DNA of 33,272 nucleotides from Coriobacteriales bacterium. Lineage in GTDB: Bacteria > Actinomycetota > Coriobacteriia > Coriobacteriales > UBA8131. The translations under genes and the position numbers were made by a program. Numbering within the stretch: the first letter of the stretch is position 1; the number at the start of each line of letters is the position of its first letter. This document shows, piece by piece, positions 1,701-31,248 of the stretch. The notes beneath the pieces were generated by a model. The model made no database searches. It was not told where the DNA came from and worked only from the letters and a program-made list of their open reading frames with translations. The stretch lies in contig JAISGJ010000220.1 of NCBI GenBank assembly GCA_031263105.1, forward strand, positions 1 to 33,272, written 5' to 3'.

Positions 1701-1837
1701 TGGCGCGAAAGAGCATTACGTCGTTGATGTGGATGACCGAGATCTACTCTGCAAAGTCATCGGAATTCTCGAACCAATTACCCCGGTTCCGAAGCCGAGG
1801 AAAACGAAGATTAGATAAAAACAAGGAGCGAGCCAAT

Positions 1838-2090
1838 GTTACTGTTCACACCCCACTGTCATCCCGAGCCCCACTGTCATTCCGAGCTCCGCCGAGGAAT
1901 CCTTGGACACGCAGTGTCCAAGGGCAGGTCGGGGGGCCCTTCGGCCTGCGGTCGGCCGCTGGCGCGGTCGAGGATCCCTCGGCAGGCTCGGGATGACAGT
2001 GGGGCTCGGGATGACAGTGGGGCTCGGGATGACAGTGGGGCTCGGGATGACAGTGGGGTGTGAACAACCGTAGAGCGTGTGAACAGTAAC
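1838..2090. repeat. MITE-like palindromic element, copy 1
   Basis: Ends GTTACTGTTCACAC (1838-1851) and GTGTGAACAGTAAC (2077-2090) are a perfect inverted pair; flanked by perfect 8-bp direct repeat GAGCCAAT (1830-1837 / 2091-2098); internal CCCACTGTCATTCCGAGC arms; 4 x 18-bp tandem GCTCGGGATGACAGTGGG at 1986-2057. Confidence 0.85.
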
Positions 2091-2328
2091 GAGCCAATGT
2101 CAAACGATTCCCCCTAATGTCAAACGATTTTATCTCAGGGGGTGTGCATTGTATCATTTGATGGTAGGTCAACCAACAGCCGGCATGCACGGCAGACCCA
2201 GCAAACGGGCAATGCGCAGCCTCGACAGCAGGGGTGCGCATTGCATCATGTGACGGAGGATGGGCCATGAGGCAGGAGGCCGTTCCTCATCCCACAAAAT
2301 CCGCCCCTTGTCCCCGTAAGCACACCCT

Positions 2329-4104: not shown

Positions 4105-4179
4105 GGGCGATTGGCGCAGCGGTAGCGCAGCTGCTTTACACGCAGAAGGTCGGCGGTTCAAATCCGTCATCGCCCACCA
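4105..4179 (+). tRNA. tRNA-Val(TAC)
   Basis: Acceptor GGGCGAT/ATCGCCC, loop TTTACAC (anticodon TAC), GGTTCAAATCC T-arm, encoded CCA. Confidence 0.9.
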
Positions 4180-4191
4180 AGCAGACAACGC

Positions 4192-4355
4192 GTTACACGT
4201 CACACCCCCACTGTCATTCCGAGCTCCGCCGAGGAATCTTTGGACACGCAGTGTCCAACGGTAGGTCAGGGGGCCCTTCGACCTGCGGTCGGCCGCTGGC
4301 GCGACCGAGGATTCCTCGACAGGCTCGGAATGACAGTGGGGGTGTGAACAGTAAC
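4192..4355. repeat. MITE-like palindromic element, copy 2
   Basis: GTTACACGTCACACCCCCACTGTCATTCCGAGC ... GCTCGGAATGACAGTGGGGGTGTGAACAGTAAC; flanks GACAACGC (4184-4191) / GACGACGC (4356-4363). Confidence 0.8.
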
Positions 4356-4458
4356 GACGACGCAAGCCGACTCAAAATAGCAGCTTGCTGCCAGTAGACA
4401 CGCGCAGGTGTTTCCGAGTAGAATAGCGTCCGCTGCTTTTTCGGCAGCTCACCCATGC

Positions 4459-10070: not shown

Positions 10071-10630
10071 GGCCCATGGAACCGCCCGCCTCTCGTTGCC
10101 GCAGGACACTATGACCCAAGCCCTTCCAGCGTTCACACCCCCACTGTCATCCCGAGCCTGTCGAGGGATCCTCGACCGCGCAAGCGGTCGACTGCGGTCG
10201 GGAGGCGTTTCGACCTGCGGTCGGCTGCTTCGCTCTCCATGGGCCGGGCGGCCCGTCCTCGCTAAGAACAGTCCGCCGGACTGTTCTCCGGGCGCTCGGG
10301 CCCGTGGGCCTGTCGGTTCCATGGGCTCACCCGCTCAGGGGCTCATACGCTGCTTCGCAGCTTCGCCCGGAAACAGCGCACCGCGCTGTTTCCCAGTCCG
10401 CAGGACTGTCGCGCCGTCCTCGCTGAAAACGCGATGCGTTTTCCGGGCGCTCGAACCCTAGGATTCCTCGGCAGGCTCGGCATGTCAGTGGGGGCTCGGA
10501 CTGTCAGTGGGGGCTCGGAATGACCGTGGGGGTGTGAACGGTAACGTTCCGGCACGGATGTGCGACCGGACTTGCGGCGACGGCCCTCGTCCGGCTGCGG
10601 GCCGATGGGGTAGAATGGACCTGCGGTGTT
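10071..10630 (+). promoter_or_regulatory. Promoter block upstream of hsdM, split by repeat copy 3
   Basis: 10546-10618 matches 20128-20200 with 3 mismatches in 73 nt, includes GGGGTAGAATGG (-10-like); 10071-10130 also aligns to 20076-20135. Confidence 0.6.
10131..10545. repeat. MITE-like palindromic element, copy 3 (composite, contains mini-hairpin array)
   Basis: GTTCACACCCCCACTGTCATCCCGAGC ... GGTGTGAACGGTAAC; flanks CTTCCAGC (10123-10130) / GTTCCGGC (10546-10553); uninterrupted homologous site at 20076-20200. Confidence 0.8.
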
Positions 10631-10780: not shown

Positions 10781-12280
<1,500 letters not shown>

Positions 12281-12353
12281 TTTCAACGAAAAACTCTCGC
12301 CACTGGTGAGAGAAAGATGATTATTCAACTTAGTGGCTTTAGAGGAGGGAGTC

Positions 12354-12701
12354 ATGACATCTGACAATTCCGAGATTATCATCTATCGCTCCTCAGACGG
12401 CGAGGTCAAGGTGGACTGCCGCCTCGACGGGGAGACGTTATGGCTCTCCCAAGCGCAAATCGCGCAGGTATTTGGGCGGAGCGTCAGCGTCGCTTCTCGG
12501 CATATCAAGAACATATTTGCCGAGGACGAGCTTGCCGAAAAAAGCAATTTGCAAAATTTGCACATTCCAAATTCCGACAGGCTGGTTATTGCAGAATTTG
12601 CAATAACCACTCGACACGGCGCAATGAAGGGCAAATCGCAAGAACATGCCATGATGCACTATAACCCTGACGTCGTCTGCGCGGGAGGTGAGGAGGAATG
12701 A
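12354..12701 (+). pseudogene. Truncated RhuM-like protein (5' fragment)
   Basis: N-terminal RhuM signature GETLWLSQAQIAQVFGRSVSVASRHIKNIFAEDEL; homology stops at HYNPDVV, reading frame ends inside the RBS/start of hsdS. Confidence 0.6.
12584..12608. repeat. Perfect inverted repeat GGTTATTGCA-GAATT-TGCAATAACC
   Basis: 10-bp arms, 5-bp centre, inside rhuM fragment. Confidence 0.95.
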
Positions 12702-13837
12702 GAACCGAACGAACAGCTCACCAGTTGGCTGACATTATCGACCTTATCGGTGGCGGAACACCGAAAACCAGCATTCCTGAATACTGGGACGGTGAAATTC
12801 CGTGGCTTTCAGTCAAGGACTTCAATAACGATGACCGCTACGTGTATTCCACTGAAAAGTCCATAACCCAAACTGGCTTTAACAATAGCTCTAGCAAGAT
12901 GTTGGCGCACGACGACATCATTATTTCAGCTCGCGGCACAGTGGGCGAACTGGCGATGATTCCGTTCCCGATGGCATTCAATCAGTCTTGCTATGGGATA
13001 AGGGGCAAGAAGGGCGCTATCTTGCAAACCTACCTCTACTATTTATTGAAGGACAGTATCCGACTTCTAGAAAACCAGACACACGGTTCGGTGTTTGACA
13101 CTATCACGCGGAACGCTTTCGCCAACATCAAAGTGAACCTGCCGATGATTCACGAACAGCAGACAGTAGCTGACACCTTAACCGCTTTGGATGACAAGAT
13201 TGCTGCCAACAAGCGTATAAATCATCGTTTAGAACAGATGGCGCAGGCCATCTGGTCGGAGCGATTCGGCGGACTCGAGCCAAACGGCAAGTTGGGTGAA
13301 GTCATTGAGATTTTTGACTCCAAGCGTGTGCCACTTTCCGGCAGTCAGCGTGAGAAAATGGATAAAACCTATCCCTACTACGGCGCAGCTGCACTTATGG
13401 ACTACGTCGACGACTATCTGTTTGATGGCATCTACCTTTTGCTTGGCGAGGATGGAAGCGTGATTGATGATTCGGGCTTCCCAGTACTTCAGTATGTCTG
13501 GGGTAAATTCTGGGTCAACAATCATGCACATATTCTTCAAGGCCGAAACGGCTTTACTGTAGAAAGCCTCTATGTTCTCTTGAGTCAAACTGGCGTAGCA
13601 TCGATTATTACCGGTGCTGTGCAACCCAAAATCAATCAAGCAAACCTCAAGGCTCTCGAAGTGGTCATCCCGTCCAGAAATGAGATGGTTCAATTCAACG
13701 ATACGGTCGACTCGCTTTTCGTGCAGATTCGGAATCATCACGACGAGAACCTCCGTCTTGCCGCCCTGCGCGACACCCTCCTGCCCCGCCTGATGTCCGG
13801 CGAGCTGTCGGTCGCGGACGCAGGCGTTAAACGATGA
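12698..13837 (+). CDS. hsdS: Type I restriction-modification specificity subunit 1
   Basis: Two TRD halves; central INHRLEQMAQAIWSERFGGLEPNG and C-terminal LAALRDTLLPRLMSGEL. Confidence 0.92.
   Translation: MRTERTAHQLADIIDLIGGGTPKTSIPEYWDGEIPWLSVKDFNNDDRYVYSTEKSITQTGFNNSSSKMLAHDDIIISARGTVGELAMIPFPMAFNQSCYGIRGKKGAILQTYLYYLLKDSIRLLENQTHGSVFDTITRNAFANIKVNLPMIHEQQTVADTLTALDDKIAANKRINHRLEQMAQAIWSERFGGLEPNGKLGEVIEIFDSKRVPLSGSQREKMDKTYPYYGAAALMDYVDDYLFDGIYLLLGEDGSVIDDSGFPVLQYVWGKFWVNNHAHILQGRNGFTVESLYVLLSQTGVASIITGAVQPKINQANLKALEVVIPSRNEMVQFNDTVDSLFVQIRNHHDENLRLAALRDTLLPRLMSGELSVADAGVKR
13217..13253 (+). repeat. 37-bp direct repeat in hsdS1 (partner 15437-15473)
   Basis: ataaatcatcgtttagaacagatggcgcaggccatct exact match; contains AGATGGC-GCAG-GCCATCT palindrome. 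Confidence 0.95.
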
Positions 13838-13841
13838 TTTA
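13769..13841 (+). repeat. 73-bp exact direct repeat at hsdS1 3' end (partner 16061-16133)
   Basis: cgcgacaccctcctgccccgcctgatgtccggcgag...gttaaacgatgattta identical at both loci. Confidence 0.95.
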
Positions 13842-13844
13842 TTG

Positions 13845-13893
13845 CTCCTTCTGCCAGTGCATAATGCATTTCTTATCGAAACGGCAGGAGGAG
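13845..13893 (+). promoter_or_regulatory. Hairpin predicted to sequester the recombinase Shine-Dalgarno
   Basis: CTCCTTCTGCC (13845-13855) pairs over 11 positions (one G-U) with GGCAGGAGGAG (13883-13893), which contains the SD before ATG 13896. Confidence 0.55.
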
Positions 13894-13895
13894 TT

Positions 13896-14888
13896 ATGAA
13901 GGACAGGTTGATAACTGAGATTCAGGCACGTATGGCGTTGATGTTAACGCAGGCGCAACTGGAGGAGCTACGGCGGGTGCTGACGCACAGCCTCCACAAC
14001 GTGGAAGTTTCGGAGCGCAAAGCCCCAGACCCACACGAAGCCGCCGAGAATGGAGGGTTGTTGGACGTGTTTATCGCTGCGAAACGGATTGAGGGCTGTT
14101 CGGAGAAGTCGCTGAGATACTATACCGCGACCATCCGTGCGATGCTCGGCACCGTAAAAAGGCCCGTGCGCGAAATCGCAACGGACGACCTGCGAGGCTA
14201 TTTGGCAAGCTACCAGAAGGAGCGCGGCTCCTCCAGAGTGACTGTGGACAACATGCGGCGAATATTCAGCAGCTTCTTTGGGTGGCTGGAGGACGAGGAC
14301 TACATCCTCAAAAGCCCCGTGCGGCGCATCCACAAAGTCAAGGCGGAAAAGACCATCAAGGAGACCTTTTCCGACGAAAGCCTAGAGCTGCTCCGCGATG
14401 CCTGCGAGGAAATCCGCGACCTCGCGATGATAGACCTGCTCGCCTCAACGGGGATGCGCGTGGGCGAACTGGTGCAGCTGAACCGCGCAGACATCAACTT
14501 CCACGAACGGGAATGCGTGGTCTTTGGCAAAGGCGGCAGCGAGCGAGTGGTCTACTTCGACGCCCGGACGAAAATCCACCTGCTGAACTACCTCGACAGC
14601 CGAAGCGACAACAGCCCCGCACTGTTCGTGTCGCTGCCCCTGCCCCACGAGCGCCTGCTCATCGGCGGCGTGGAGACACGCCTACGCGAAATCGGCAAGC
14701 GAGCTGACATGCAGAAAGTACACCCCCACAAATTCCGCCGCACCCTCGCCACCCGCGCCATAGACAAAGGAATGCCCATCGAACAAGTGCAGCGGCTACT
14801 CGGTCATGTCAAAATAGACACGACCATGCACTACGCTATGGTCAACCAAGCAAACGTGAAGAACTCGCACAGGAAATTTATCGGATGA
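13896..14888 (+). CDS. Tyrosine recombinase/integrase
   Basis: STGMRVGEL, HKFRRTLATRA, LLGHVKIDTTMHY: R-HxxR-H-Y catalytic set; N-terminal SAM-like core-binding domain. Confidence 0.92.
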   Translation: MKDRLITEIQARMALMLTQAQLEELRRVLTHSLHNVEVSERKAPDPHEAAENGGLLDVFIAAKRIEGCSEKSLRYYTATIRAMLGTVKRPVREIATDDLRGYLASYQKERGSSRVTVDNMRRIFSSFFGWLEDEDYILKSPVRRIHKVKAEKTIKETFSDESLELLRDACEEIRDLAMIDLLASTGMRVGELVQLNRADINFHERECVVFGKGGSERVVYFDARTKIHLLNYLDSRSDNSPALFVSLPLPHERLLIGGVETRLREIGKRADMQKVHPHKFRRTLATRAIDKGMPIEQVQRLLGHVKIDTTMHYAMVNQANVKNSHRKFIG

Positions 14889-16129
14889 GGGAGGCGGACG
14901 AAATGAGCAAATGGGAACGGCTTGCGCTTGGGGATGTCGCAGGCATCAAGCACGGTTACGCCTTTAAAGGCGAGTACTTCTGCGACGAACCTACGCACTT
15001 TTTGCTCTTGACTCCGGGGAATTTTATGATTGGTGGGGGCTTTCAGGAAAAGCCGAAATTCTATAACGGTCCTATTCCCGAGAGTTATGTTCTTGCAAAA
15101 GACGATTTAATCGTCACAATGACTGATTTGAGCAAACGAGGCGATACGCTGGGTTATTCGGCACTTGTTCCCACAAGCAACCGCTATTTACACAATCAGC
15201 GCATAGGTTTGGTAACAATGAAGAATTCCGAGGTATTAAAGGAGTTCGTTTACTGGCTAATGCGAACTTGGGACTATCAAAGGTTCATCATAAACCATGC
15301 TTCTGGTAGCACGGTAAAACACACATCCCCTAAGACAATCTTGTCTTACGAATTTGCGGCTCCCCCTATTGAGGAGCAACGAATAATCGTGGCAACGTTG
15401 TCTGCCATAGATGACAAAATCGCCAACAACAGGGCGATAAATCATCGTTTAGAACAGATGGCGCAGGCCATCTTCAAATCATGGTTCGTGGACTTCGAGC
15501 CGTGGGGCGGGAAGATGCCGGATGATTGGCGGGAAGGCACGATTTCCGATTTGGGCGATGTCATCGGTGGCAGTACGCCGTCCAAAGCAAAGCCCGAATA
15601 TTACGCCGAACATGGTATCGCTTGGATTACACCCAAAGATTTGTCTATCAACAAGAGCAAGTTCATAGCTCGCGGAGCAAATGACATCACGGAGTTTGGA
15701 CTTCGCAACAGTAATGCACGTCTGATGCCGCCGGGAGCTGTCCTTTTCAGCTCTAGGGCACCTATCGGTTACATTGCCGTAGCGAGTGGTGAAGTCTGCA
15801 CCAATCAGGGCTTTAAGTCCATCGTTCCGAAAGAGACCGTTGGCACGGCTTTCGTTTACTGCTTCCTGATTGAGAATCTCCAAACCATAGAGAGCATGGC
15901 TTCGGGTTCGACTTTCAAAGAAGTATCGGGCACAACAATGAAAGGCATTCCCGCTGCTATTCCCACCGATGACACATTTCGCCGCTTTCAAGAAGAGTGC
16001 ACCTCCCTTTTCGAGAAGCAAGAACTTCTGGAAGCAGAGAACGCTCGCCTCGCCGCCCTACGCGACACCCTCCTGCCCCGCCTGATGTCCGGCGAGCTGT
16101 CGGTCGCGGACGCAGGCGTTAAACGATGA
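14885..16129 (+). CDS. hsdS: Type I restriction-modification specificity subunit 2
   Basis: Two TRDs; INHRLEQMAQAIFKSWFVDFEP central and LAALRDTLLPRLMSGELSVADAGVKR C-term identical to hsdS1; start overlaps integrase stop. Confidence 0.92.
   Translation: MREADEMSKWERLALGDVAGIKHGYAFKGEYFCDEPTHFLLLTPGNFMIGGGFQEKPKFYNGPIPESYVLAKDDLIVTMTDLSKRGDTLGYSALVPTSNRYLHNQRIGLVTMKNSEVLKEFVYWLMRTWDYQRFIINHASGSTVKHTSPKTILSYEFAAPPIEEQRIIVATLSAIDDKIANNRAINHRLEQMAQAIFKSWFVDFEPWGGKMPDDWREGTISDLGDVIGGSTPSKAKPEYYAEHGIAWITPKDLSINKSKFIARGANDITEFGLRNSNARLMPPGAVLFSSRAPIGYIAVASGEVCTNQGFKSIVPKETVGTAFVYCFLIENLQTIESMASGSTFKEVSGTTMKGIPAAIPTDDTFRRFQEECTSLFEKQELLEAENARLAALRDTLLPRLMSGELSVADAGVKR
15437..15473 (+). repeat. 37-bp direct repeat in hsdS2 (partner 13217-13253)
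   Basis: Exact match. Confidence 0.95.
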
Positions 16130-16133
16130 TTTA
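16061..16133 (+). repeat. 73-bp exact direct repeat at hsdS2 3' end (partner 13769-13841)
   Basis: Exact match. Confidence 0.95.
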
Positions 16134-16178
16134 GCACTTTCGGGCTTGACGACGGAATGAAGGAGGAGGACGTAGCCG

Positions 16179-19100
16179 ATGCCACAAGACACGTACAGAT
16201 ATGCACACTTCACCGAAGCTCACTACGAGAACGCCGTCATAGAGGTGCTCCGCGACACCTTGGGCTACGGCTCTGTCTACGCGCCTGACCTGGAGCGGGA
16301 TTACACCGACCCGCTCTATGTGGACGAGTTGCTGCCTGCCTTGCGCAAAATCAATCCCAAGGTGCCGGAGGCGGCGCTTGCGGAGGCGGTCTACAGGCTG
16401 CGGGACTTCGAGGGCGGGACGCTCTGGCAGAAGAACATCCGGTTCATGGACTACCTCCAGAACGGAGTGCCCGTCAACTATCACGACGGGGGCGAGCAGC
16501 AAGCGGAGCTGGTCAACCTTGTGGACTACGAGGACGTGGGGCGAAACACCTTCACCGTCGCCAATCAGTGGACGGTTGTCGAGAACAGCGAGAAGCGTCC
16601 CGATGTCATCGTCTTCCTGAACGGCATGCCTATCGTAGTGTTTGAGCTCAAATCGCCCTCCCGGGAGGAGACCGATGCGAGCGAGGCGTACCGGCAGCTG
16701 CGCAACTACATGCAGGAGATACCGTCGCTGTTCGTCTACAACGCCTTCTGCGTCATGAGCGACCTTGCCACGTCCAAGGCCGGCACCATCACTGCCGAAG
16801 AAGACCGCTTCATGGAGTGGAAGACGAAGGACGGCAGCTACGAGAACACGCAGCACGCCCAGTTCGACACCTTCCTTGAGGGGATGTTCGACAAGGCGCG
16901 GCTGCTCGATATTGTCAAGAACTTCATCTGCTTCTCCGACGACGTGAAGATTCTCGGCGCGTACCACCAGTACTTCGCGGTGCGCAAGGCCATCGACTCC
17001 ACCCAGAGTGCGTCAGGGACAGACGGGAAGGGCGGCGTGTTCTGGCACACGCAGGGCAGCGGCAAGTCGCTCTCGATGGTGTTTTACGCGCACCTGCTGC
17101 AGGAGGCCCTGAACTCGCCGACCATCGTGGTCCTCACCGACCGCAACGACCTTGACGACCAGCTCTTCGAGCAGTTCTCCAAGTGCGCCGACTTCCTGCG
17201 GCAGACCCCGGTACAGGCGGAGAGCCGCGAGCACCTGAAGGAGCTTCTTGCCGGACGACGGGCCAACGGCATCATCTTCACCACCGCGCAGAAGTTCGAG
17301 GAGTCCGACGAGCGCCTTTCCGAGCGCAGCAACGTCGTCATCATCGCCGACGAGGCCCATCGCAGCCAGTTCATCGACCAAGCCGTCGACAGCAAGACGG
17401 GCAGGGTCAAAAAGACCTTCGGCCTCATCATCCGGGAGAGTCTGCCGAACGCCACCTACATCGGCTTCACGGGAACGCCGATATCCAGCAAGGACCGCAG
17501 CACCATCGAGGTCTTTGGCAACTACATCGATGTCTACGACATGACGCAGGCCGTCGAGGACGGCGCCACCCGCCCCGTCTACTACGAGAGCCGCGTCATC
17601 CATCTGAGGCTCGACGAGGACATCCTGCGGCTCATCGACGCCGAGTACGACCTCATGGCACAGAGCGCCGAGCCTTACGCCATCGAGAAGAGCAAGAAGG
17701 AGCTCGGTCGCATGGACAGCATCCTCGGTGCGGAACAGACCTTGGACGCGCTCTGCGAGGACATCGTGAGACACTACGAGGAGAACCGGCAGAACGAGCT
17801 CACGGGCAAGGCGATGATCGTCTCCTACTCCCGCCCGATCGCAATGGGCATCTACCGGAAGATACTCTCGATGCGCCCTGCCTGGGCAGAGAAGGTCGGC
17901 GTGGTGATGACCTCCAGCAACGACGACCCCGAGGAGTGGCACGGCGTCATCGGCAACAAGCGCCACCGCGACGAGATGGCCAAGAGGTTCAAGGACGACG
18001 ACGACCCCCTGAAAATCGCAATTGTCGTGGATATGTGGCTGACCGGCTTCGACGTGCCGAGCCTCGCGACGATGTACCTCTACAAGCCGATGGCCGGGCA
18101 CAACCTGATGCAGGCCATCGCCCGCGTCAACCGCGTCTACAAGGACAAGGAGGGCGGCCTGGTCGTCGACTACGTCGGCATCGCCTCCGCGCTGAAGCAG
18201 GCGATGAACGACTACACGAACCGCGACAGGCACAACTACGGGGACACCAACGTCGCCAAGACCGCATTGCCGAAGTTCGTTGAGAAGCTCGAGGTCTGCC
18301 GCGACCTGATGCACGGCTTTGACTATTCGGTCTTTATGAGAGACTCTGCGTCCGACCTCGACCGGGCAAAGACCATCAGCGGCGGCGTCAATTTCCTGAC
18401 GGCGGTGGAGCCGCTGCCCCGGCCTGCCGCCACTCCGACCGACGTCATCGGCTCGGACGACTACTTCTATGCGGACAAGGTGGCCGAGGGGGCGTTCGGG
18501 GCGCCGTTCGCGCACAAGGCCCTGAAGGCCTCGCCCGATGAGCGCGAGACGCGCAAGGACAGCTTCATCAAAGAGGCGATGCTGCTGCGCCAGGCCCTGT
18601 CGCTTTGCCGCAGCCTGCTGACCCCCGCGCAGAGGCTCGAGGCTGCGTACTTCGAGGCGGTGCGCACCTTGCTCACGCGCATCACAGGCGAGGACAAGCC
18701 GCTCTCGCTCAAGGACATCAATGCTCGCGTCAACGAGCTCCTCAAAGCGAGCATCCGAAGCGAAGGCGTCATCAACCTCTTCTCGGACATCGACACGGGC
18801 TTCTCGCTGTTCGACTCCCAGTTCCTCGAAGAGATCGCCAAGATGAAGGAGCGCAACCTCGCGGTGGAGATACTCAAGAAACTGCTCGCCGAGCAGATAT
18901 CCCTCTACCGCAGGACGAACCTCGTCAAATCCGAGAAGTTCTCCGAGATGCTTTCACGGGCAATGAAGGCCTATCTCAATGGGATGCTCTCCAACGAAGA
19001 GGTCATCGCCGAGCTGATGAAGATGGCGCACGAGATGCAGACCGCCCACGAGGAAGGCTCCGCGATGGGCCTGACCGACGAGGAACTCGCCTTCTACGAC

Positions 19101-19349
19101 GCACTGACGCGACCGGAGGCCATCAAGGACTTCTACGAGAACGACGAGCTCGTGGCGATGACGCGGGAACTCACGGACGTCCTGCGCAAGAGCCGCACCA
19201 TCGACTGGCAAAAGAAGGAGTCCGCCCGCGCCGGGATGCGCCGCATGGTCAAGAAGCTCCTGAAGAAGCACAAGTACCCGCCCGAGGGCATGGACGACGC
19301 CATCACCACCGTCATAGGCCAATGCGAGATGTGGACGGACAGGCCATAA
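16179..19349 (+). CDS. hsdR: Type I restriction endonuclease subunit R
   Basis: 1056 aa; nuclease region VFELKSP; helicase motifs HTQGSGKSLSM, DEAHRSQ, GFTGTPI, QAIARVNRV. Confidence 0.95.
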   Translation: MPQDTYRYAHFTEAHYENAVIEVLRDTLGYGSVYAPDLERDYTDPLYVDELLPALRKINPKVPEAALAEAVYRLRDFEGGTLWQKNIRFMDYLQNGVPVNYHDGGEQQAELVNLVDYEDVGRNTFTVANQWTVVENSEKRPDVIVFLNGMPIVVFELKSPSREETDASEAYRQLRNYMQEIPSLFVYNAFCVMSDLATSKAGTITAEEDRFMEWKTKDGSYENTQHAQFDTFLEGMFDKARLLDIVKNFICFSDDVKILGAYHQYFAVRKAIDSTQSASGTDGKGGVFWHTQGSGKSLSMVFYAHLLQEALNSPTIVVLTDRNDLDDQLFEQFSKCADFLRQTPVQAESREHLKELLAGRRANGIIFTTAQKFEESDERLSERSNVVIIADEAHRSQFIDQAVDSKTGRVKKTFGLIIRESLPNATYIGFTGTPISSKDRSTIEVFGNYIDVYDMTQAVEDGATRPVYYESRVIHLRLDEDILRLIDAEYDLMAQSAEPYAIEKSKKELGRMDSILGAEQTLDALCEDIVRHYEENRQNELTGKAMIVSYSRPIAMGIYRKILSMRPAWAEKVGVVMTSSNDDPEEWHGVIGNKRHRDEMAKRFKDDDDPLKIAIVVDMWLTGFDVPSLATMYLYKPMAGHNLMQAIARVNRVYKDKEGGLVVDYVGIASALKQAMNDYTNRDRHNYGDTNVAKTALPKFVEKLEVCRDLMHGFDYSVFMRDSASDLDRAKTISGGVNFLTAVEPLPRPAATPTDVIGSDDYFYADKVAEGAFGAPFAHKALKASPDERETRKDSFIKEAMLLRQALSLCRSLLTPAQRLEAAYFEAVRTLLTRITGEDKPLSLKDINARVNELLKASIRSEGVINLFSDIDTGFSLFDSQFLEEIAKMKERNLAVEILKKLLAEQISLYRRTNLVKSEKFSEMLSRAMKAYLNGMLSNEEVIAELMKMAHEMQTAHEEGSAMGLTDEELAFYDALTRPEAIKDFYENDELVAMTRELTDVLRKSRTIDWQKKESARAGMRRMVKKLLKKHKYPPEGMDDAITTVIGQCEMWTDRP

Positions 19350-20075: not shown

Positions 20076-20257
20076 GGCCTATGGAACCGCCCGCTTCTCG
20101 TTGCCGCCGAGCGACATGGCCCGAGCCGTTCCAGCACGGATGTGCGACCGGGCTTGCGGCGGCGGCCCTCGTCCGGCTGCGGGCCGATGGGGTAGAATGG
20201 ATCTACGTTGTTTATCAGGGGATACCCGCGAGGGCAAAGGCGACAGGAGGGCGTCAC
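20076..20257 (+). promoter_or_regulatory. Uninterrupted promoter block upstream of MmeI-like gene (homologue of block at 10071-10630)
   Basis: GTTCCAGCACGGATGTGCGACCGGGCTTGCGG...GGGGTAGAATGG near-identical to the hsdM upstream region. Confidence 0.6.
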
Positions 20258-23047
20258 GTGGACATGAGGCGGCAGCGGGCGGCAGCGGCGGCCTTCGCCG
20301 GGAAGTGGGCGGGGCGCGGCTACGAGAAGGGCGACACCGCCCCGTTCTGGCTGGAGTTCCTGCGCGAGTGCCTGGGCGTGGCCGACCCCGACTCACTGGC
20401 CAGGTTCGAGAGGCGCACCGACGCGGGGTTCCCCGACGTGACCATCTCAGACACCGGGGTCATCATCGAGCAGAAGTCCCTGGGGGTGGACCTCGACAAG
20501 GCCGAGACCCGCCAGAGGCGGCAGGTCACCCCCTACGAGCAGGCGCTCAGCTACGCCCAGTCGCTGCCCCCCTCGCAAAGCCCGCGCTTCATCGTCACCT
20601 GCAACTTCGAGACCTTCCGCATCTACGACCGCGAGGCCGACCAGTCCGGCGAGGCCTTCACGCAGGTCGGGCTCGAGGAGCTGCCCGAGCAGGTGCACCT
20701 GTTCGGCTTCATGGCAGACCCCGCCAACTCCCGCACGGAGCGCGAGCGCAAGGTCTCCGTCGAGGCGGGCGCGCTCATCGGGGAGCTGCACCGCAGGCTC
20801 CGGGCCCAGTACCCCGACCCGGAGGGCGCCGAGAGCCGCCACTCGCTGAACGTGCTCTGCGTCCGGCTGGTCTTCCTGCTCTTCGCCGAGGACGCGGGGC
20901 TGCTCGGGAGGAAGGACTTCCTCTACGACTACCTGCGGGAGGTGCCCGCCGGCAAGGGGATGTTCCGCCGCGCCCTGCTCGACCTCTTCGACGTGCTGGA
21001 CACGCCCGCAGACGAGCGCAGGCTCTACCCGGGGGACGCGCTCGCCGGCTTCCCCCACATCAACGGCGGCCTGTTCGCAGAGCGCATCGAGGTCCCCGTC
21101 TTCACCGACGACATCAAGCACCACCTGCTCCAGAGGACCTCCCTGGGCTTCGACTGGTCGGCGATAAGCCCGGTCGTCTTCGGCGGGGTCTTCGAGTCCA
21201 CCCTGAACCCCGAGACCCGCGCCGGCGGCGGCATGCACTACACGAGCGTCGAGAACATCCACAAGGTCATAGGCCCGCTGTTCTTAGACGCGCTCGAGGA
21301 GGAGCTCGACGGCATCGTCGCCGCAGGGCTGCCGGAGAGGGCCTTGGCGCAGCGGCTCCGGGGCTTCCAGGACAGGCTCGCGTCCCTGCGCTTCCTCGAC
21401 CCCGCCTGCGGCTCCGGCAACTTCCTCACCGAGGCCTACCTCTGCCTGCGCCGCCTGGAGAACCGCGCTCTCATGCGGCTCCACGGCGGGCAGGGCACGC
21501 TCGACCTCGGCGACGGCGGCGCCGTCAAGGTGGGCCTCTCGCAGTTCTACGGCATCGAGATAAACGACTTCGCCGTGCGCGTGGCCGCCACCGCACTCTG
21601 GATAGCCGAGCTCCAAGCCAACCGGGAGAGCGAGGGCGTCACCCACCGCGCCATCGAGGACTTCCCCCTCAAGGACAGCGCCAACATCGTGCTCGCCAAC
21701 GCCCTCGCCACCGACTGGGACGACGTGCTGCCCGCCGACGAGTGCAGCTACGTCATGGGCAACCCGCCGTTCTTGGGGTATTCGACCATGAGCAAGCAAC
21801 AGGCGGCGGAGATGCAGGCCATCTTCGAGGGCACCAAGGGAGCCGGCACGCTTGACTACGTAGCCGCCTGGTACAGGAAGGCCGCCGACTACTCGGACGA
21901 CACGGGCGTCCACTGCGCCTTCGTCTCAACCAACTCGATCTGTCAAGGGCAGCAGGTCGAGCCGCTCTGGAAGCCTCTGTTCGAGCGCGGCATCCACATC
22001 AACTTCGCCCACAAGAGCTTCGTCTGGAACAGCGAGGCGACAGACCTCGCCCACGTTCACGTCGTCGTCGTCGGGTTCTCGCACGAGCCTGACCGACCGC
22101 TCCTGTTCGAGTACCTGGGCGGAAGGGGCGCGGCGACCGTCCGCCCGGTGAACAACATCAACGCCTATCTCGTAGACGCAGACAATGTGTTCGTCGCAAA
22201 GCGGTCGAAGCCGATGAGCGACGTGCCGCCCATGACCGCCGGAGGCAAGCCCACGGAGGGAGGCAACCTCATCCTGTCCCAAGACGAGAGGGACGAGCTA
22301 GTCTGCAGGGAGCCGCTTGCCGAGAGGTACATCCGCAGCTACTCGATGGGCGCCGAGTTCATCAACGGCATCCCCCGCTACTGCCTGTGGCTCGTGGACT
22401 GCCCTCCCCACGAGCTGCGCCAGATGCCCCTCGTGCGGGAGCGGGTCGAGCGGGTGCGCGAAATGCGCCTGGCGAGCTCGAAGGATGCGACGCGCAGAAA
22501 GGCCGCCACGCCGACGCTGTTCGATGAGATACGAGCGATTTCCGGTGACCACTATATAGCAGTACCGCAGGTCTCCTCCGAGAGACGAAACTACATACCC
22601 ATCGGGTTCCTGACGAACCAGACGGTTCCGGGCAACATGCTCTTCGTGATCGGAGGGGCCGACACGTACCTGTTCGGATTGCTCACCTCCCAGTTCCACA
22701 ACGCCTGGATGCGCACGATCGCCGGACGGCTGAAGTCAGATTATCGCTATTCGAACACACTGGTCTACAACACCTTCGTCTTCCCCGACGCGACTGAGGG
22801 GCAGAAGCAGGGAATCTCGGCTCGTGCCCAAGCGGTCCTTGATGCCCGCGCCAAATTCCCCGAAAGCTCCCTCGCCGACCTCTACGACCCCCTCGCCATG
22901 CCGCCCGACCTCCTCCGCGCCCACCGCTCCCTCGACCGCGCCGTCGAGCAGGCCTACGGCGTCACCTTCAACGGCGACGAGGAGCGAATTGTCGCGCATT
23001 TATTTGGGTTGTACTCGCAGGAAATCGAACATTTCGATGCCCAGTAA
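20258..23047 (+). CDS. MmeI-like (Type IIL/IIG) DNA methyltransferase, likely single-chain R-M enzyme
   Basis: FPDVTISDTGVIIEQK (PD-ExK-like nuclease), FLDPACGSGNF, GNPPFLG, MmeI-type domain order; GTG start 7 nt after AGGAGG. Confidence 0.85.
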   Translation: MDMRRQRAAAAAFAGKWAGRGYEKGDTAPFWLEFLRECLGVADPDSLARFERRTDAGFPDVTISDTGVIIEQKSLGVDLDKAETRQRRQVTPYEQALSYAQSLPPSQSPRFIVTCNFETFRIYDREADQSGEAFTQVGLEELPEQVHLFGFMADPANSRTERERKVSVEAGALIGELHRRLRAQYPDPEGAESRHSLNVLCVRLVFLLFAEDAGLLGRKDFLYDYLREVPAGKGMFRRALLDLFDVLDTPADERRLYPGDALAGFPHINGGLFAERIEVPVFTDDIKHHLLQRTSLGFDWSAISPVVFGGVFESTLNPETRAGGGMHYTSVENIHKVIGPLFLDALEEELDGIVAAGLPERALAQRLRGFQDRLASLRFLDPACGSGNFLTEAYLCLRRLENRALMRLHGGQGTLDLGDGGAVKVGLSQFYGIEINDFAVRVAATALWIAELQANRESEGVTHRAIEDFPLKDSANIVLANALATDWDDVLPADECSYVMGNPPFLGYSTMSKQQAAEMQAIFEGTKGAGTLDYVAAWYRKAADYSDDTGVHCAFVSTNSICQGQQVEPLWKPLFERGIHINFAHKSFVWNSEATDLAHVHVVVVGFSHEPDRPLLFEYLGGRGAATVRPVNNINAYLVDADNVFVAKRSKPMSDVPPMTAGGKPTEGGNLILSQDERDELVCREPLAERYIRSYSMGAEFINGIPRYCLWLVDCPPHELRQMPLVRERVERVREMRLASSKDATRRKAATPTLFDEIRAISGDHYIAVPQVSSERRNYIPIGFLTNQTVPGNMLFVIGGADTYLFGLLTSQFHNAWMRTIAGRLKSDYRYSNTLVYNTFVFPDATEGQKQGISARAQAVLDARAKFPESSLADLYDPLAMPPDLLRAHRSLDRAVEQAYGVTFNGDEERIVAHLFGLYSQEIEHFDAQ

Positions 23048-23117
23048 ATTCTGCGTCACTATTTCTTTGAAGCACGCTTTTAAGGCGTGAAACTTGAGAA
23101 TGGGAAATGAGGCAGTG

Positions 23118-24467
23118 ATGAAGCTCGAATACATATTAATTCCAACAGATGAAACAGATGATGAAGCTACTGCTCAAACAGTACGAGCATTTCTAAAGAG
23201 GCGGTTCAGGGCAGTAAGGGTAGATACGTTGGATTTGGAGTATCGCAAGAAGATAATAAGCGTACCTTATACGTTAAGGAAAAGTGAAGGTAGTGCAAGT
23301 ACACGATTCCATTTTTCTGTCGAACTATCCAACTTTCAGCGGGATTACCAGAGTCGTATTCTCTCAAAAGTCCATTCGCTAGTCTCCGAAGGGGAACGAC
23401 AACACTTTTATATCTTGCTTGTGCGAGATGATGTCAGCGCCTATTGTGCGGAAAGAATCTATCCTTCGCTATACCAACTGGAATCTCGGGTACGCTCCAT
23501 TCTCTACAAATTGCTTACAAAAGCCCTTGGACGTTACTGGTATGCGCAAGAAATGCCTAGCAAGCTAAAGAAGAACATTCAGAAGAAAATCAAGACATCG
23601 CCCAAACACTCGGAAGAAGAGGTGGTGGTAGAACGGGCACTGCAGGAACTCACCTTCAATGAACTTATTGAATGGTTACTGAGGAAATCAAGAGAGAACT
23701 CGCCTGACAAGATAATAGATGATGACCTAAGGGATGAAATTATATGCAACCTTAGCAAAGAAGAGATAATCGAAAAGGTGGCCACCGCACGCGAAAAGAC
23801 ATTATGGAGCAGATACCGTGCGGACTATTTTGAGATTGTCGGATTCGAAGAAAAGCTTGGAAAGCTCAAGGACGTCCGTAATGCTGTCTGCCATTGCAAG
23901 TTTTTTCATTGGGACGACCTGAGTTCAGCGAAGGCTCTATTTAAGGAAGGCGACTTGCTCGAATCTCTTGACAAGGGAATTGATAAAATTGACAGCGAAG
24001 ACATGACCGCTGAATTTGCTGCAGACGTTCTCCGGGATTCGGCATTAGGTCTCTCTGGACTCTCCGAAATGTTCAGCGAGTTATTGTATCCCCATGCAAT
24101 GAAGCTGTCGGAAATACTAGCCGACGCGATAGGCCCGATTACACAAAATTTCACGTCAGACATCCTTCAGCCCATCGCTAGGCCACTATCTGTTGCACAA
24201 ACGGAGCAAGCAGAGATGCTAAAAAGCTTCTTGGGTGCCATTATGCCCAAATACAATTTCACATCCGCAATCTCAAGCGTAACGGACTTTGGGATACACG
24301 AGGACATTGCTTCCCAAATGCTAAACTTACGAGGTCAATCATATGCAAACAATATGAGAACCACCATTTCTGCCCTTCCGTTAAAATGTTCAGGCTTACC
24401 AAGTAAAGACAAGGGCTTCGCGCAAATAGACAATAAGCACCATGTCGAGGAGAAGGATAAAGATTGA
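23118..24467 (+). CDS. Uncharacterised protein with HEPN-like region (RNAVCH)
   Basis: Long ORF directly downstream of the MmeI-like gene; IYPSLYQLESRVRSILYKLL... helix and LKDVRNAVCHCKFFHWDD (R-x4-H); visibly more AT-rich than neighbours; start 23118 or 23094. Confidence 0.7.
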   Translation: MKLEYILIPTDETDDEATAQTVRAFLKRRFRAVRVDTLDLEYRKKIISVPYTLRKSEGSASTRFHFSVELSNFQRDYQSRILSKVHSLVSEGERQHFYILLVRDDVSAYCAERIYPSLYQLESRVRSILYKLLTKALGRYWYAQEMPSKLKKNIQKKIKTSPKHSEEEVVVERALQELTFNELIEWLLRKSRENSPDKIIDDDLRDEIICNLSKEEIIEKVATAREKTLWSRYRADYFEIVGFEEKLGKLKDVRNAVCHCKFFHWDDLSSAKALFKEGDLLESLDKGIDKIDSEDMTAEFAADVLRDSALGLSGLSEMFSELLYPHAMKLSEILADAIGPITQNFTSDILQPIARPLSVAQTEQAEMLKSFLGAIMPKYNFTSAISSVTDFGIHEDIASQMLNLRGQSYANNMRTTISALPLKCSGLPSKDKGFAQIDNKHHVEEKDKD

Positions 24468-24510
24468 TGTTGAATCCACTGGCTGCAATTAGAGATAGGT
24501 GCGTAACATC

Positions 24511-26019
24511 ATGACCAACGAACACCTACACAAACTACTCGCCGAGGGCGAGGGCCTCACGGTCGAGTTCAAGGAGAGCACGAGCACCCTGAGCAACGCC
24601 GTGTTCGAGACCGTCAGCTCCTTCTCCAACCGCTATGGCGGCCATATACTCATCGGCGTCAAGGATGACGGCACGGTGCTTGGCGTGAGTCGCAATGCCG
24701 CTGGCTCGATGAAGAGGAACTTCGCCAACACCCTCAACAACCCCGAGCGCATGGCCCCCACGCTGTTCCTGAACCTAGAAGAGGCGGAGGTCGACGGCAG
24801 GCTCGTCCTCTATGCATACGTCCCCGCAAGCTCGCAGATACAGATGTTCTCCTCGCGGATATACGACCGCAACGAGGACGGTGACATGGACATCACCAAC
24901 TCCACCGACCTTATCGCCCAAATGTCCATCCGCAAGTCCAACAGCTTCACCGAGCGCAAGGTGTTCCCATACGCAACCTCAGACGACCTTCTGTTAAACG
25001 AACTGATGCCCGTCGTGCGCCGCAAGGCGGTAGGTCGGCAGGCTGGGCACCCGTGGGGCGATATGAGCGATATGGAGATACTGCTCAGCGCCGGCCTATA
25101 CGAGAAGGACAGGGTTACCGGCAAGGAGGGCTTCAACCTCGCAGCCCTCATGCTCTTCGGGCGCGACGAGATAATCCAGCAGGCGTCCCCCGGCTACGTG
25201 ACGGACTGCCTGCTGCGGGTGAAGGACATCGACCGCTACGACGACCGCGAGCGTGTGGACTGCAATCTCATCCAGGCATTCGACAAATGCATGGCGTTCA
25301 TCCGCAAGCACACCATCGACCCGTTCTTCCTCATCGACGACCTCAATGCCAGCGTTCGCGACAAGATCGCTAAGGAGTTGGTTTCCAACATCCTCGTCCA
25401 CCGAGAGTTCTCAAGCCCCATGCCAGGACGCATCGTCATCGAGAAGAACAGGATGACTGGCGAGAACTGGAATCGCTCGCTGCACCCCGGCCACCTTACA
25501 CCGGAGAGCTTCGAGCCCTATCCCAAGAATCCCATTCTCTCGCGCTTCTTCGTGAACATCGGCTACGCCGACACACTCGGGTCTGGTGTACGCAATCTGT
25601 TCAAATTCGTGAAGATGTACTCTGGCTCAGAACCGGAGTTACTTGAGAGCGATGTCTTCAAGACGATTATCCCGCTACCGCAGCTTGACGCAGAAAGCGT
25701 TAAGGTTGTGAGCTACGTTGCAGTGAGTGCTGCTCAAAGCACAAATACAGGTGAAACTGAAATTGGAAATACAACTGAAGGACAGGGCAATGCAACCACA
25801 AATGCAACTGTAACTCAATTCGGTGCAGCTGCAAATGCAACTGAAAATCAGATTCTTAACGCTGTTCGAAAAGAAAGGGCCATTTCATATGACGAGCTGG
25901 CGCAAAGGCTCTCGAAGGATAGAACGACAATCTACCGAAATATCAGGGCTCTTAAAGATAGAGGTATCTTGGAACGCGTTGGCCCTAATAAGGGCGGACA
26001 CTGGAGGATTCTAAAATAG
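24511..26019 (+). CDS. AlbA_2 (Schlafen-like) ATP-binding/RecG-like regulator with C-terminal HTH
   Basis: EGLTVEFKESTSTLSNAVFETVSSFSNRYGGHILIGVKDDG; ELVSNILVHREFS; HTH AISYDELAQRLSKDRTTIYRNIRALKDRG. Confidence 0.85.
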   Translation: MTNEHLHKLLAEGEGLTVEFKESTSTLSNAVFETVSSFSNRYGGHILIGVKDDGTVLGVSRNAAGSMKRNFANTLNNPERMAPTLFLNLEEAEVDGRLVLYAYVPASSQIQMFSSRIYDRNEDGDMDITNSTDLIAQMSIRKSNSFTERKVFPYATSDDLLLNELMPVVRRKAVGRQAGHPWGDMSDMEILLSAGLYEKDRVTGKEGFNLAALMLFGRDEIIQQASPGYVTDCLLRVKDIDRYDDRERVDCNLIQAFDKCMAFIRKHTIDPFFLIDDLNASVRDKIAKELVSNILVHREFSSPMPGRIVIEKNRMTGENWNRSLHPGHLTPESFEPYPKNPILSRFFVNIGYADTLGSGVRNLFKFVKMYSGSEPELLESDVFKTIIPLPQLDAESVKVVSYVAVSAAQSTNTGETEIGNTTEGQGNATTNATVTQFGAAANATENQILNAVRKERAISYDELAQRLSKDRTTIYRNIRALKDRGILERVGPNKGGHWRILK

Positions 26020-26030
26020 TGGAGGAGGCC

Positions 26031-26087
26031 ATGTCTGACGTGTGCAAAATTTGCGGTGCAGAGACCCGGCTTGATTCATTGCAGTAG
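26031..26087 (+). CDS. 18-aa Cys-pair mini-ORF (possible 5' remnant)
   Basis: GGAGGAGGCC then ATG: MSDVCKICGAETRLDSLQ*. Confidence 0.3.
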   Translation: MSDVCKICGAETRLDSLQ

Positions 26088-26171
26088 GGGGCATCTGCCA
26101 TAGGGAGCCTCCTAACCGTGCCACGAGTCGTAACAAAACAGTAGTCACCGGAATCGCTGAAAGGAATTGAA

Positions 26172-26345
26172 ATGCTTAACGAAAACGACTATTGCAAATG
26201 TGCGCACCCGTCATCTATCACGGCTACGGTGGACGAATGGGGTTATTGGGATACCTGTTGCGACTGCAATAAGCCACTTGAAGATGGCTTCCATGACTAC
26301 AATCACTACGATGGAAAAGATCACGACAATAGCGATTTGTACTGA
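26172..26345 (+). CDS. small Cys/His/Asp-rich protein, possible zinc-binding
   Basis: 57 aa not in ORF track: MLNENDYCKCAHPSSITATVDEWGYWDTCCDCNKPLEDGFHDYNHYDGKDHDNSDLY; AAAGGA upstream. Confidence 0.6.
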   Translation: MLNENDYCKCAHPSSITATVDEWGYWDTCCDCNKPLEDGFHDYNHYDGKDHDNSDLY

Positions 26346-26373
26346 TTATTCGTCCAAGACACCGTAACATGAC

Positions 26374-26619
26374 TCAGATGGCTATGCCGAGCAACGCCAG
26401 TACCGGGCAGCACGCGAACACGACAACGTACATCATCCCCACCAATATCACGACAACGATGGCTTCGCCCGCCCAGCCTCTCCTTTGGCCTTGTTCTCTG
26501 TTGGGCCCTTTCGTCCGCGCTATCGGTGCCTCTCGTTCGGCACGGCCTTGCTCCCTCGTCTCCTCTTTCCTAAGCAAGTAATCCTCCATCTGCCTGAAGC
26601 AATAAATCGGCATCTCCAT
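26374..26619 (-). CDS. small putative membrane protein
   Basis: 81 aa with C-terminal hydrophobic helix AIVVVILVGMMYVVVFACCPVLALLGIAI. Confidence 0.4.
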   Translation of the reverse strand: MEMPIYCFRQMEDYLLRKEETREQGRAEREAPIARTKGPNREQGQRRGWAGEAIVVVILVGMMYVVVFACCPVLALLGIAI

Positions 26620-26712
26620 AGAGAACCCGTTTCCAATTCTCCCACACGTAATTGAGGCATATTGTATGCTGCCTTAAGGACTGAGGCAATCCTTTCACTG
26701 CCTTGAGGAGCA

Positions 26713-27141
26713 GGTGCGGCGCCGTTCAGCCGCTCTGAGGCCCGCGACTTCTTGGATGTTGACAGGATACGAACCTCCGGCCTTTACTCCGACGACATGC
26801 CGCTGGCAATGATTCGCCAGCGTGCCCCCAGCTTCGAGATGGGCATGTTCGTTCAGCAGCTTGAGCACATAAATCGTTACCGTTCACATCCCACTGTCAT
26901 TCTGAGCGAAGCGCCCGCACGGGCGCGCAGCGTGAGAATCCTTGGGCACGCAGTGTCCAACTGGCCCGGTTGGGCGCTGGTGCTCTCAAAGATTCCTCGA
27001 CTTCGCTCGGAATGACAGTGGGGTGTGCAGTTGGAGCAGATAGAGTCCAGATTCAACGAGTGGATTGAAGCGCTCAAGGGCTTGGGGCGCAATGAAGCGG
27101 ATGCCGGAGATGCCCTTACGGAACACCCCCGGACTTCCTGA
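26713..27141 (+). pseudogene. Nucleotidyltransferase AbiEii-like remnant interrupted by repeat copy 4
   Basis: SRSEARDFLDVDRIRTSGLYSDDMPLAMIRQRAPSFEMGMFVQQLEHINRY before, QLEQIESRFNEWIEALKGLGRNEADAG after the repeat. Confidence 0.5.
26876..27027. repeat. MITE-like palindromic element, copy 4 (right end decayed)
   Basis: GTTACCGTTCACATCCCACTGTCATTCTGAGC ... GCTCGGAATGACAGTGGGGTGTG. Confidence 0.75.
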
Positions 27142-27181
27142 CAGGTCTGCCGACTGAATCATTTCCCGTCTGCGAGACGGG

Positions 27182-27790
27182 TCAGACGCGATGGCACGTG
27201 CCGCATTCGTATACGTCTTCGTGGTGGCAGGTCAGGCATGCTTTCGGGGCCGTCTCGATCACTGGATCAGAACCGTGCATCTTATGACAGGATGAGCAGG
27301 TGACGTTTCTGGCATGGTCGTCGTTGACGGGAAGGTCGTGCGGATTGACCACCGTACCTTTGGAATCAGTCAATATGGTCGTACTCTCCGTCTCGGTCTT
27401 GAGGGCACCGGCATTGTGGCAGTCTAGGCAGACCTCCGATGAGACCTCGGTCTTTTTCAGCTTGACGGGCACCTTGGCTGTCCCATAATCCTCATGCGCC
27501 TTCATCAAGGCTCCGTCATTATCGACATGGCAAGTGCCGCACCGTACTCCTTGCTGACCTGCGTGGTGGAAATATGCAGTAGTTGTGTCGCTCTCCGATT
27601 GCACTTCGGCGGTATGGCAGCTTGAGCAATCCATGTCTATGGCCCAAGTTGGCAGTTCGACGGAAGACATCTCTCCTGCGAATGTCGCAGCATGGGAATC
27701 CGGGGCCGCCTGCCTAGGGGCACATGCCACAAGGACAATGGCACAGACAAGGACGATGGGAGCAAAGAGCAGTCCGGTCTTCCTTGTCAT
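27182..27790 (-). CDS. multiheme c-type cytochrome lipoprotein
   Basis: Six CxxCH motifs (CSSCH, CGTCH, CLDCH, CSSCH, CLTCH, CGTCH); lipobox-like VLVAC. Confidence 0.9.
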   Translation of the reverse strand: MTRKTGLLFAPIVLVCAIVLVACAPRQAAPDSHAATFAGEMSSVELPTWAIDMDCSSCHTAEVQSESDTTTAYFHHAGQQGVRCGTCHVDNDGALMKAHEDYGTAKVPVKLKKTEVSSEVCLDCHNAGALKTETESTTILTDSKGTVVNPHDLPVNDDHARNVTCSSCHKMHGSDPVIETAPKACLTCHHEDVYECGTCHRV

Positions 27791-27803
27791 GTGCGACACC
27801 CCC

Positions 27804-29495
27804 CTACTCCCACGGCTCAAGCGCTGCTGCGTTTTCTGCCGCCAACTTGCCGGTTATGATAGCCTCGGCGACATTGCCGGAGCCGTGATATAACATGCTG
27901 TATACTGACCCGCACTCGCCGCAGGCATAGAACCTGGGTATTTCATTGTCGTCATGGTCTAGACACCTGCAATCCAGGTTGCTGTGCTTGGGGCCACCCT
28001 GTGTATTGATGAAGGTCGGAACCAACTCGATGCTATAGAAAGGCGGGGTGACAATCGGGGACATTTCAGTGCGGCCATATTCAAGATCCAAGCCTTGAGT
28101 TGCGTACTCGTTGAAGTTGTTGACCGTCTCTTCGAGTGCGTCGGGGTTGATTCCTGCAATTTCTGCTAGCCCGCGAATCGTATCTGCCCTTTTGATGATT
28201 CCGTTTTCGATCTCTTTCGAGTTGTCGTCGCTCCATTCATACAGGCCATGGTTGACAGCGAAACCCATCACCTGCCTATTGTTGGTTACATAGAAGCCAG
28301 CGTTGCCCGCAAGCCTTCTTGTCTCGTCGAAGACTGCGAAGGAAGGCACTCCCCAGAAGTCACAAAGAGATGTCGGGTCATCGGCAAAGCCCTTGAAATA
28401 AATCGGGGGGAACTCCTTGGTATGGATTAGGCTCATGTCTTCGTTGTACATCCGCTCACCCGACTTGTTAACGATGCACCCTGAGTTCAGGCCTCGAAAA
28501 TCACTGAAGGTCGACTGGTCGTCGTCGTTGATTCTCACGCCCAGTCCCAGCCACTCGATTCCAGCCATATGCCATAGATCGGCTCCGACAGGACCGGCCA
28601 TATAAATCGCGTCACCACGGTTGAAGGGACTGCCGGCAGGATAGACACGAAGCCCGGGCATGACATGATAGTCAATCAGCTCAGGGCTGTTCTCATAACC
28701 CCCGCAGCAAAGCAGCACGCCTTTGGTTGCCTTGATAAAGATGTCCTTTCCCTCTTTATCCTGTGCCCGGCATCCGAGAACCTCCCGAGTATTCGGGTTT
28801 TGAAACAAGGCAAGACCGCGAGTCTCGTACATGACCCGAATCCCACGATCAGACACCCGTTGCGCAAGCATGTCGTGTAAGTCCTTACCGTTCGCAGGCT
28901 CGCCGTCTTCGCGTATGGCCCTGTTTTGATCAATTCCCGAATCGCCAACAGCCCCAGAGGCTGGGTTACCCGTCAATGGGTCAATCGGTACGGAGTCAGA
29001 GGTAAAGAAGTGTGAATAGTTGTGCACCGTCTGTCTGTGCTCGATTTCCAGGGTGTCCATCCAGTCGATGATGCCCTTATCGGCTTCGACCCAGTCTTTC
29101 AAATAGTTGTCTGGAGTGATATGGAAACAGAGCTTTTGAAGGTGCTCCAAGTAAAGACTCTCATCCCATACGCTTACCCAGCCACCTCCACATGCCGTTG
29201 AGTTGCCGCCTCTCAATTCTTCAGGAGCGACTTCTAGCACCAACGCATCCGCCCCCTGCATATTGGCGGCTATTGCGGCGGAGGCGCCAGCGAACCCATA
29301 ACCGATTATCAGGATTTCAGTCTCTAAATCCCATTTCTCCGGCATCCACGCCTCGGTCTCCTTTGGTGCTTCGGCTGCGGTTCCTGTCGTGCCCGGCGTA
29401 CAGCCGTTGAGGGCAGTGACAGTTGCCGCGCCCGCTACAGCAGCTGCGGTAATCGCACCACCTTTGAGAAAGTCCCGCCTTGTGAATTTATCCAT
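27804..29495 (-). CDS. Tat-exported FAD-dependent reductase (flavocytochrome c/fumarate-urocanate reductase-like)
   Basis: MDKFTRRDFLKGGAITAAAVAGAATVTALNGC Tat signal; GYGFAGASAAIAANMQGADALVLE FAD motif. Confidence 0.9.
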   Translation of the reverse strand: MDKFTRRDFLKGGAITAAAVAGAATVTALNGCTPGTTGTAAEAPKETEAWMPEKWDLETEILIIGYGFAGASAAIAANMQGADALVLEVAPEELRGGNSTACGGGWVSVWDESLYLEHLQKLCFHITPDNYLKDWVEADKGIIDWMDTLEIEHRQTVHNYSHFFTSDSVPIDPLTGNPASGAVGDSGIDQNRAIREDGEPANGKDLHDMLAQRVSDRGIRVMYETRGLALFQNPNTREVLGCRAQDKEGKDIFIKATKGVLLCCGGYENSPELIDYHVMPGLRVYPAGSPFNRGDAIYMAGPVGADLWHMAGIEWLGLGVRINDDDQSTFSDFRGLNSGCIVNKSGERMYNEDMSLIHTKEFPPIYFKGFADDPTSLCDFWGVPSFAVFDETRRLAGNAGFYVTNNRQVMGFAVNHGLYEWSDDNSKEIENGIIKRADTIRGLAEIAGINPDALEETVNNFNEYATQGLDLEYGRTEMSPIVTPPFYSIELVPTFINTQGGPKHSNLDCRCLDHDDNEIPRFYACGECGSVYSMLYHGSGNVAEAIITGKLAAENAAALEPWE

Positions 29496-29780
29496 TACGT
29501 TCTCCTCTGCATCTTCCTGCACTGTTCCTTCACTATAGAAGCGAGAATCTAAATTCAGCTTCGAAGGCTGAAACAATTCTCCGAATCCGCCCAAAAGGCA
29601 GCAATCACACATCTGGTGTGAAAAACAGGTAAGCACTCACACGCGACGTGGCATTTGCTGCCTGACATCCATCGGGTGAGACCGCCTGATTCGAACTCGA
29701 TGGTTTTCTCTGTTTCACCCGCAACGTGTGAAGCGCGTAATGACTTGCCACACTACAATTGCATAGCACAGGGAGGAATC

Positions 29781-31202: not shown

Positions 31203-31248
31203 CTGTTGCGAGCTTGCTCGCCCATCTTCAACGTGAGCGGAATGCTCG

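Follow-up and report, generated by a model that had tools for sequence, protein, structure and literature searches.

A short DNA element in more than a hundred copies across an uncultured actinobacterial genome, with eight bases duplicated per insertion

An uncultured actinobacterium of the order Coriobacteriales carries more than a hundred genomic copies of a short parasitic DNA element, and eight bases of the target are duplicated per insertion. According to its ends and duplications, the element is very probably an IS66-family MITE of the ISBst12-like group that is moved in trans by an IS66-type transposase. The window, which is the whole 33,272-nt stretch of DNA analysed here, is contig C28 of the source MAG (2.9 Mb, 250 contigs, 86% complete, 6.5% contamination).

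Results

The window contained two well-bounded copies of the MITE and two decayed copies (Table 1), the latter (10131-10545 and 26876-27027) being additional to those listed in an earlier note made from the sequence. That note had described a perfect 14-bp inverted repeat with identical 8-bp flanks at 1830-2098. The structure was found to be exact: when the window was scanned for pairs of perfect 14-bp inverted repeats spaced 50-600 bp and flanked by identical 8-mers, only 1838-2090 was returned, and 50 shuffles of the window returned nothing. The flanks of copy 2 at 4192-4355 differed at one position, as had also been claimed (GACAACGC and GACGACGC, 7/8). Copy 2 represents the common size class, and its triplet after GTTAC is ACG at the left end versus TGT at the right end. 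Copy 1 is longer than the 163-bp type owing to amplification of an 18-bp right-arm unit (CTCGGGATGACAGTGGGG, four copies). The same note had seen no transposase in the window, and a Pfam scan of the 20 larger window ORFs gave no transposase match. In the Rfam search, only two tRNAs were matched, and the MITE had no Rfam family.

Table 1. Positions of the MITE copies and of other features. Positions without a prefix refer to the window; C and L prefixes denote other contigs and loci.
Feature	Position	Strand	Remarks
Left target-site duplication, copy 1	1830..1837	.	GAGCCAAT
MITE copy 1	1838..2090	+	253 bp
Left terminal inverted repeat, copy 1	1838..1851	+	GTTACTGTTCACAC
Internal hairpin, copy 1	1901..1923	+	CCTTGGACACGCAGTGTCCAAGG
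Tandem 18-bp copies, copy 1	1987..2058	+	four copies of CTCGGGATGACAGTGGGG
Right terminal inverted repeat, copy 1	2077..2090	-	GTGTGAACAGTAAC on +, GTTACTGTTCACAC on -
Right target-site duplication, copy 1	2091..2098	.	GAGCCAAT
tRNA-Val	4105-4179
Left target-site duplication, copy 2	4184..4191	.	GACAACGC; shortly after tRNA-Val
MITE copy 2	4192..4355	+	164 bp; left end GTTACACG, right end reads GTTACTGT
Right target-site duplication, copy 2	4356..4363	.	GACGACGC; 7/8 vs left
MITE copy 3	10131..10545	+	415 bp; extra internal hairpin modules; left tip decayed; no target duplication
First hsdS	12698-13837
Tyrosine integrase	13842-14888
Second hsdS	14885-16129
MITE copy 4	26876..27027	+	right tip lost; no target duplication
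Nested copy	L183:7345-7507		target ATTCCGAG; within interior of another copy
Nested copy	L187:2424-2584		target GTGGGGCG; within right end of another copy
Nested copy	L195:4948-5108		target GCGTGGGG
IS66 element of G020 (Coriobacteriales bacterium Roe453_bin54, JAITRZ010000064.1)	C41:3703-6004		2302 bp

Across the 2.9-Mb MAG, there were 307 occurrences of the end motif GTTACNGTTCACACC (at most one mismatch) and 79 of another end type, GTTACACGTCACACC, the two counts overlapping in part; the GTTACNGTTCACACC pattern read backwards had no occurrence in the MAG. We read the stretches around the end sites, which amounted to 1.49 Mb, or about half of the MAG. The first 1.3 Mb yielded 127 end pairs, of which 43 had a perfect 8-bp duplication and 58 had one of at least 7/8, compared with 0.02 and 0.2, respectively, expected from cross-pairing (left flanks paired with the right flanks of other elements); this pass favoured right ends within 4 kb that gave a duplication, and the resulting slight inflation by chance is far below the observed excess. 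An earlier pass with nearest-end pairing gave 14 perfect duplications among 35. In all 1.49 Mb, we found 64 elements with a target duplication of at least 7/8 (46 perfect, 18 at 7/8). Their sizes ranged from 85 to 557 bp with a mode of 161-165, and terminal inverted repeats of 14-15 bp (GTTACNNNTCACACC) were present at both ends. No duplication-bounded element longer than 600 bp was found when the 1.49 Mb was searched to 4.5 kb. The element combines the features of a MITE, namely terminal inverted repeats, a constant 8-bp duplication, a short length without a transposase gene, and many dispersed copies. Extraction of the genome-wide flanks, a check proposed in the earlier note, revealed consistent 8-bp duplications, indicating a non-autonomous transposable element, as that note had suggested, rather than a mere palindrome of the REP type. 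The exact pattern of end plus core was absent from the databases of genome contigs and viral contigs, and a BLAST search of copy 2 against plasmids gave no match.

Three copies were inserted within other copies, and the target sequence was duplicated (Table 1). For the 59 elements with enough flank, placement was evaluated against gene predictions from a simple rule combining ORFs and codon-position GC. The results indicated that 50 of 59 elements lay outside predicted genes and 9 inside, compared with 84 and 216, respectively, of 300 random positions. Elements frequently coincided with contig ends in the assembly. Two ribosomal-operon contigs (L171 and L220) were compared for presence or absence of copies; the one large gap examined was different from the MITE. 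These two ribosomal-protein operon contigs lie in one bin and are about 81% identical, and the MAG is probably a mixture of two related species. Given these operons and the contamination of 6.5%, the copies may stem from two related organisms.

The common 163-bp form was a near-complete palindrome with a near-perfect cloverleaf fold, with two stems, the terminal one about 33 bp long (formed by the ends and CCCCACTGTCATTCCGAGC), and three hairpins. The predicted RNA fold had an energy of -119.7 kcal/mol, compared with -61 for shuffles (z -14), and the fold was similar as DNA. The mean identity of 21 common-form elements was 93%, suggesting a recent spread. Compensatory changes were observed in 9 of 66 predicted pairs, in which both sides had changed and pairing was kept; several of these were in the end triplet. 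In 35 of the 64 elements, the two ends had the same triplet after GTTAC, compared with a shuffled mean of 12.4 and maximum of 26, in a permutation test that ignores shared descent, itself a possible cause of the matching. The matched triplets occurred in several different versions. In longer copies, such as copy 1, CTCGGGATGACAGTGGGG was repeated in tandem as an 18-bp unit, with further hairpin modules in some of them. We also observed four tandem arrays after a normal end (L218:6069, L180:4107, L164:15026, and L102:4401), in which the 18-bp core had several A/T to G/C changes (CACTGTCATCCCGAGC to CGCTGCCGCCCCGGGC) homogenised along the array.

The interior core TGTCATYCYGAGC was present 957 times in the window's genome and 374 times in the complete genome G192, from another family of the same order. 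Elsewhere in the phylum, numbers were small and most genomes had none. Of 415 leading cores in the window's genome, 255 lay immediately after a recognisable end, and many of the others appeared to follow decayed ends. Thirty loci read in G192 (L247-L276) were palindromes without GTTAC ends or evident target duplication, located mostly between genes. In other genera of the family that includes the source bacterium, GTCATT-type palindromes (GTCATTGCGAGG, GTCATTGCGGCC, and GTCATTCCGGCC) were found with like ends (L283 in G005, L282 and L286 in G023, and L221 in G028). Patterns of end plus GTCATT were absent from viral contigs, and no repeat paper was among the matches listed in a literature search with the core sequence.

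The earlier note had proposed to look for a DDE transposase with matching ends, and a related genome contains one. The end GTTACNNNTCACACC was rare among 32 genomes of the same family, and G020 had two, facing inward and spanning 2302 bp. This element is bounded on each side by a perfect 15-bp end (GTTACAGGTCACACC) and has flanks forming an 8-bp duplication at 7/8 (CAAAACGG/TAAAACGG), and one 575-aa ORF, an IS66-family transposase (TnpC-type DDE; NF033517 IS66 transposase, 183.4 bits with a cut-off of 180; PF03050, 8.5e-20). The exact 15-mer GTTACAGGTCACACC is also an end in the window's genome. The MITE and the G020 element have only the ends in common, and their interiors differ. The G020 element also contains a 76-aa ORF (L279:1558-1788, - strand) without a Pfam or NCBIfam match, which may be a passenger or part of another transposase. 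In the 1.49 Mb scanned of the window's own genome, the search for an IS66 transposase gave no match. Ends of the form GTAACTATTCA... and 8-bp duplications are seen in known single-ORF IS66 elements of the ISBst12 group. Among such elements on plasmids, ISGst1 has the ends GTAACTATTCAGCC and GTAACTATTCACCCC with a perfect 8-bp duplication (AAAAGAAC); its right end matches GTTACTGTTCACACC at 12 of 15 letters, position 3 being among the differences. Perfect 8-bp duplications were likewise found for ISGka4 (end GTAACTATTCAGCCC, duplication AACTCGTC) and for a single-ORF IS66 element of a Planococcus plasmid (end GTAACTACTTAGG, duplication TTTAATTT). A second IS66 gene (MT837605.1) is followed by GTTACTGTTCAGAGG. 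In G023, from another genus of the family, a 143-bp MITE had the same end type and a perfect 8-bp duplication (AAAAGAAT). ISDge4 of the ISBst12 group has been reported with the ends GTAACTGCTCAGCA and the 8-bp repeat CCTCGATG (PMC12898284).

Other loci were also observed in the window. A type I restriction-modification locus (10781-19349) comprised hsdM, two hsdS genes, a tyrosine integrase, and hsdR. A 97-bp direct repeat (94%) closes both hsdS genes and suggests specificity shuffling by the tyrosine integrase. An MmeI-type restriction-modification fusion protein (20081-23047) adjoins the type I system, and two Schlafen/AlbA proteins (24499-26019 and 31249-32733) are encoded near it; the region 20081-32733 may be a defence island.

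Discussion

The IS66 gene lying between the same ends in G020, together with the ends and 8-bp duplications of the ISBst12 group, led us to classify the element as an IS66/ISBst12-type MITE. Judged from sequence comparison, an IS66-type transposase most likely moved the copies of this genome. In the proposed mechanism, an IS66-type DDE transposase supplied in trans would recognise the ends GTTAC-NNN-TCACACC and excise or copy the element, which would then be joined to target DNA with an 8-base stagger; gap repair would convert this stagger into the 8-bp duplication.

Several DDE families other than IS66, namely IS256, ISL3, IS1595, and IS4/ISAs1-type, also produce 8-bp duplications. An enzyme of one of these families could have moved the MITE, a reading compatible with the lack of an IS66 gene in the scanned part of the genome. 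We regard it as quite unlikely, since PF00872, PF01610, and PF12762 had no match in the whole genome assembly, and the MITE ends closely match those of IS66 elements but not those of the PF01609 genes. No IS256, ISL3, or IS1595 partner was found in the assembly. Three DDE_Tnp_1 (PF01609) genes were located near contig ends, and the two that were read closely were IS5-type with their own, different ends. Contig C96 also carries an IS110-like gene.

Retention for the benefit of the host, as a structured RNA, terminator, or regulatory cassette whose mobility is ancient, would fit the very stable cloverleaf, the compensatory changes, and the intergenic bias. However, intergenic bias and hairpin stability are also expected of a gene-avoiding MITE, many copies are decayed or nested, and the missing Rfam match and the high mean identity likewise speak against retention, which we consider very unlikely. 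Least probable of all, and close to negligible, is that an extragenic palindrome of the REP/BIME kind has spread without duplicating its target, with a RAYT as one possible agent and the flanking 8-mers being incidental. The abundance of end-less core palindromes in G192 fits such an origin, but in the window's genome the duplications far exceed chance expectation and abut the GTTAC termini exactly, and the nested insertions duplicate sequence of the host element. The 8-bp duplications refute the REP/BIME reading for the GTTAC-bounded copies, and it may still apply to the end-less G192 palindromes.

Compared with the IS66 elements of the ISBst12 group (ISBst12, ISGst1, ISGka4, and ISDge4), the MITE shares the 8-bp target duplication and ends of the type GT(A/T)AC...TCA..C, and in G020, a related genome, the same ends enclose a single-ORF IS66 transposase. 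The MITE differs in lacking a transposase gene at 85-557 bp, as expected of a non-autonomous derivative, and position 3 of its ends is T, whereas it is A in the known ends of the group. Previous studies have reported similar derivatives of other families. MITEAba12 is short, lacks a transposase, and has terminal inverted repeats and a constant-length duplication; its parent ISAba12 makes 9-bp duplications, and identity to the parent is limited to the ends (PMC6382973). MITECca01 of Cardinium has 169 copies and an IS982-family parent (PMC9769881). The present MITE resembles both in being short, without a transposase, and bounded by terminal inverted repeats, MITEAba12 also in its constant-length duplication and end-limited identity to the parent, and MITECca01 in its high copy number. 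In contrast to both, the present MITE has IS66 as its parent type and forms a palindromic cloverleaf over its full length. Truncated MITEs such as QMITE2 can resemble REP/BIME palindromes (PMC10969869). The present MITE is likewise an intergenic palindrome in many copies, but, unlike the REP/BIME and QMITE2-type palindromes, it has target duplications and terminal repeats. No description of an IS66-derived MITE was found in the literature searched, which left subscription papers mostly outside.

If the matching of the end triplets goes beyond sub-family descent, the ends might be homogenised by a process acting on the element in its folded, single-stranded state (template switching or hairpin repair), or several transposase specificities might coexist. 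With GTCATT-type palindromes inside like ends elsewhere, IS66-type transposases could also drive some GTCATTCC palindromes of other bacteria. We offer these ideas as speculation that will probably not hold.

In summary, the MITE is a clear new example of an already known kind of mobile element. A high-copy repeat of uncultured Coriobacteriales is assigned to a transposase family, together with its rules (ends and target duplication), and the elements have spread mainly in intergenic DNA, placing a strong hairpin beside genes and tRNAs.
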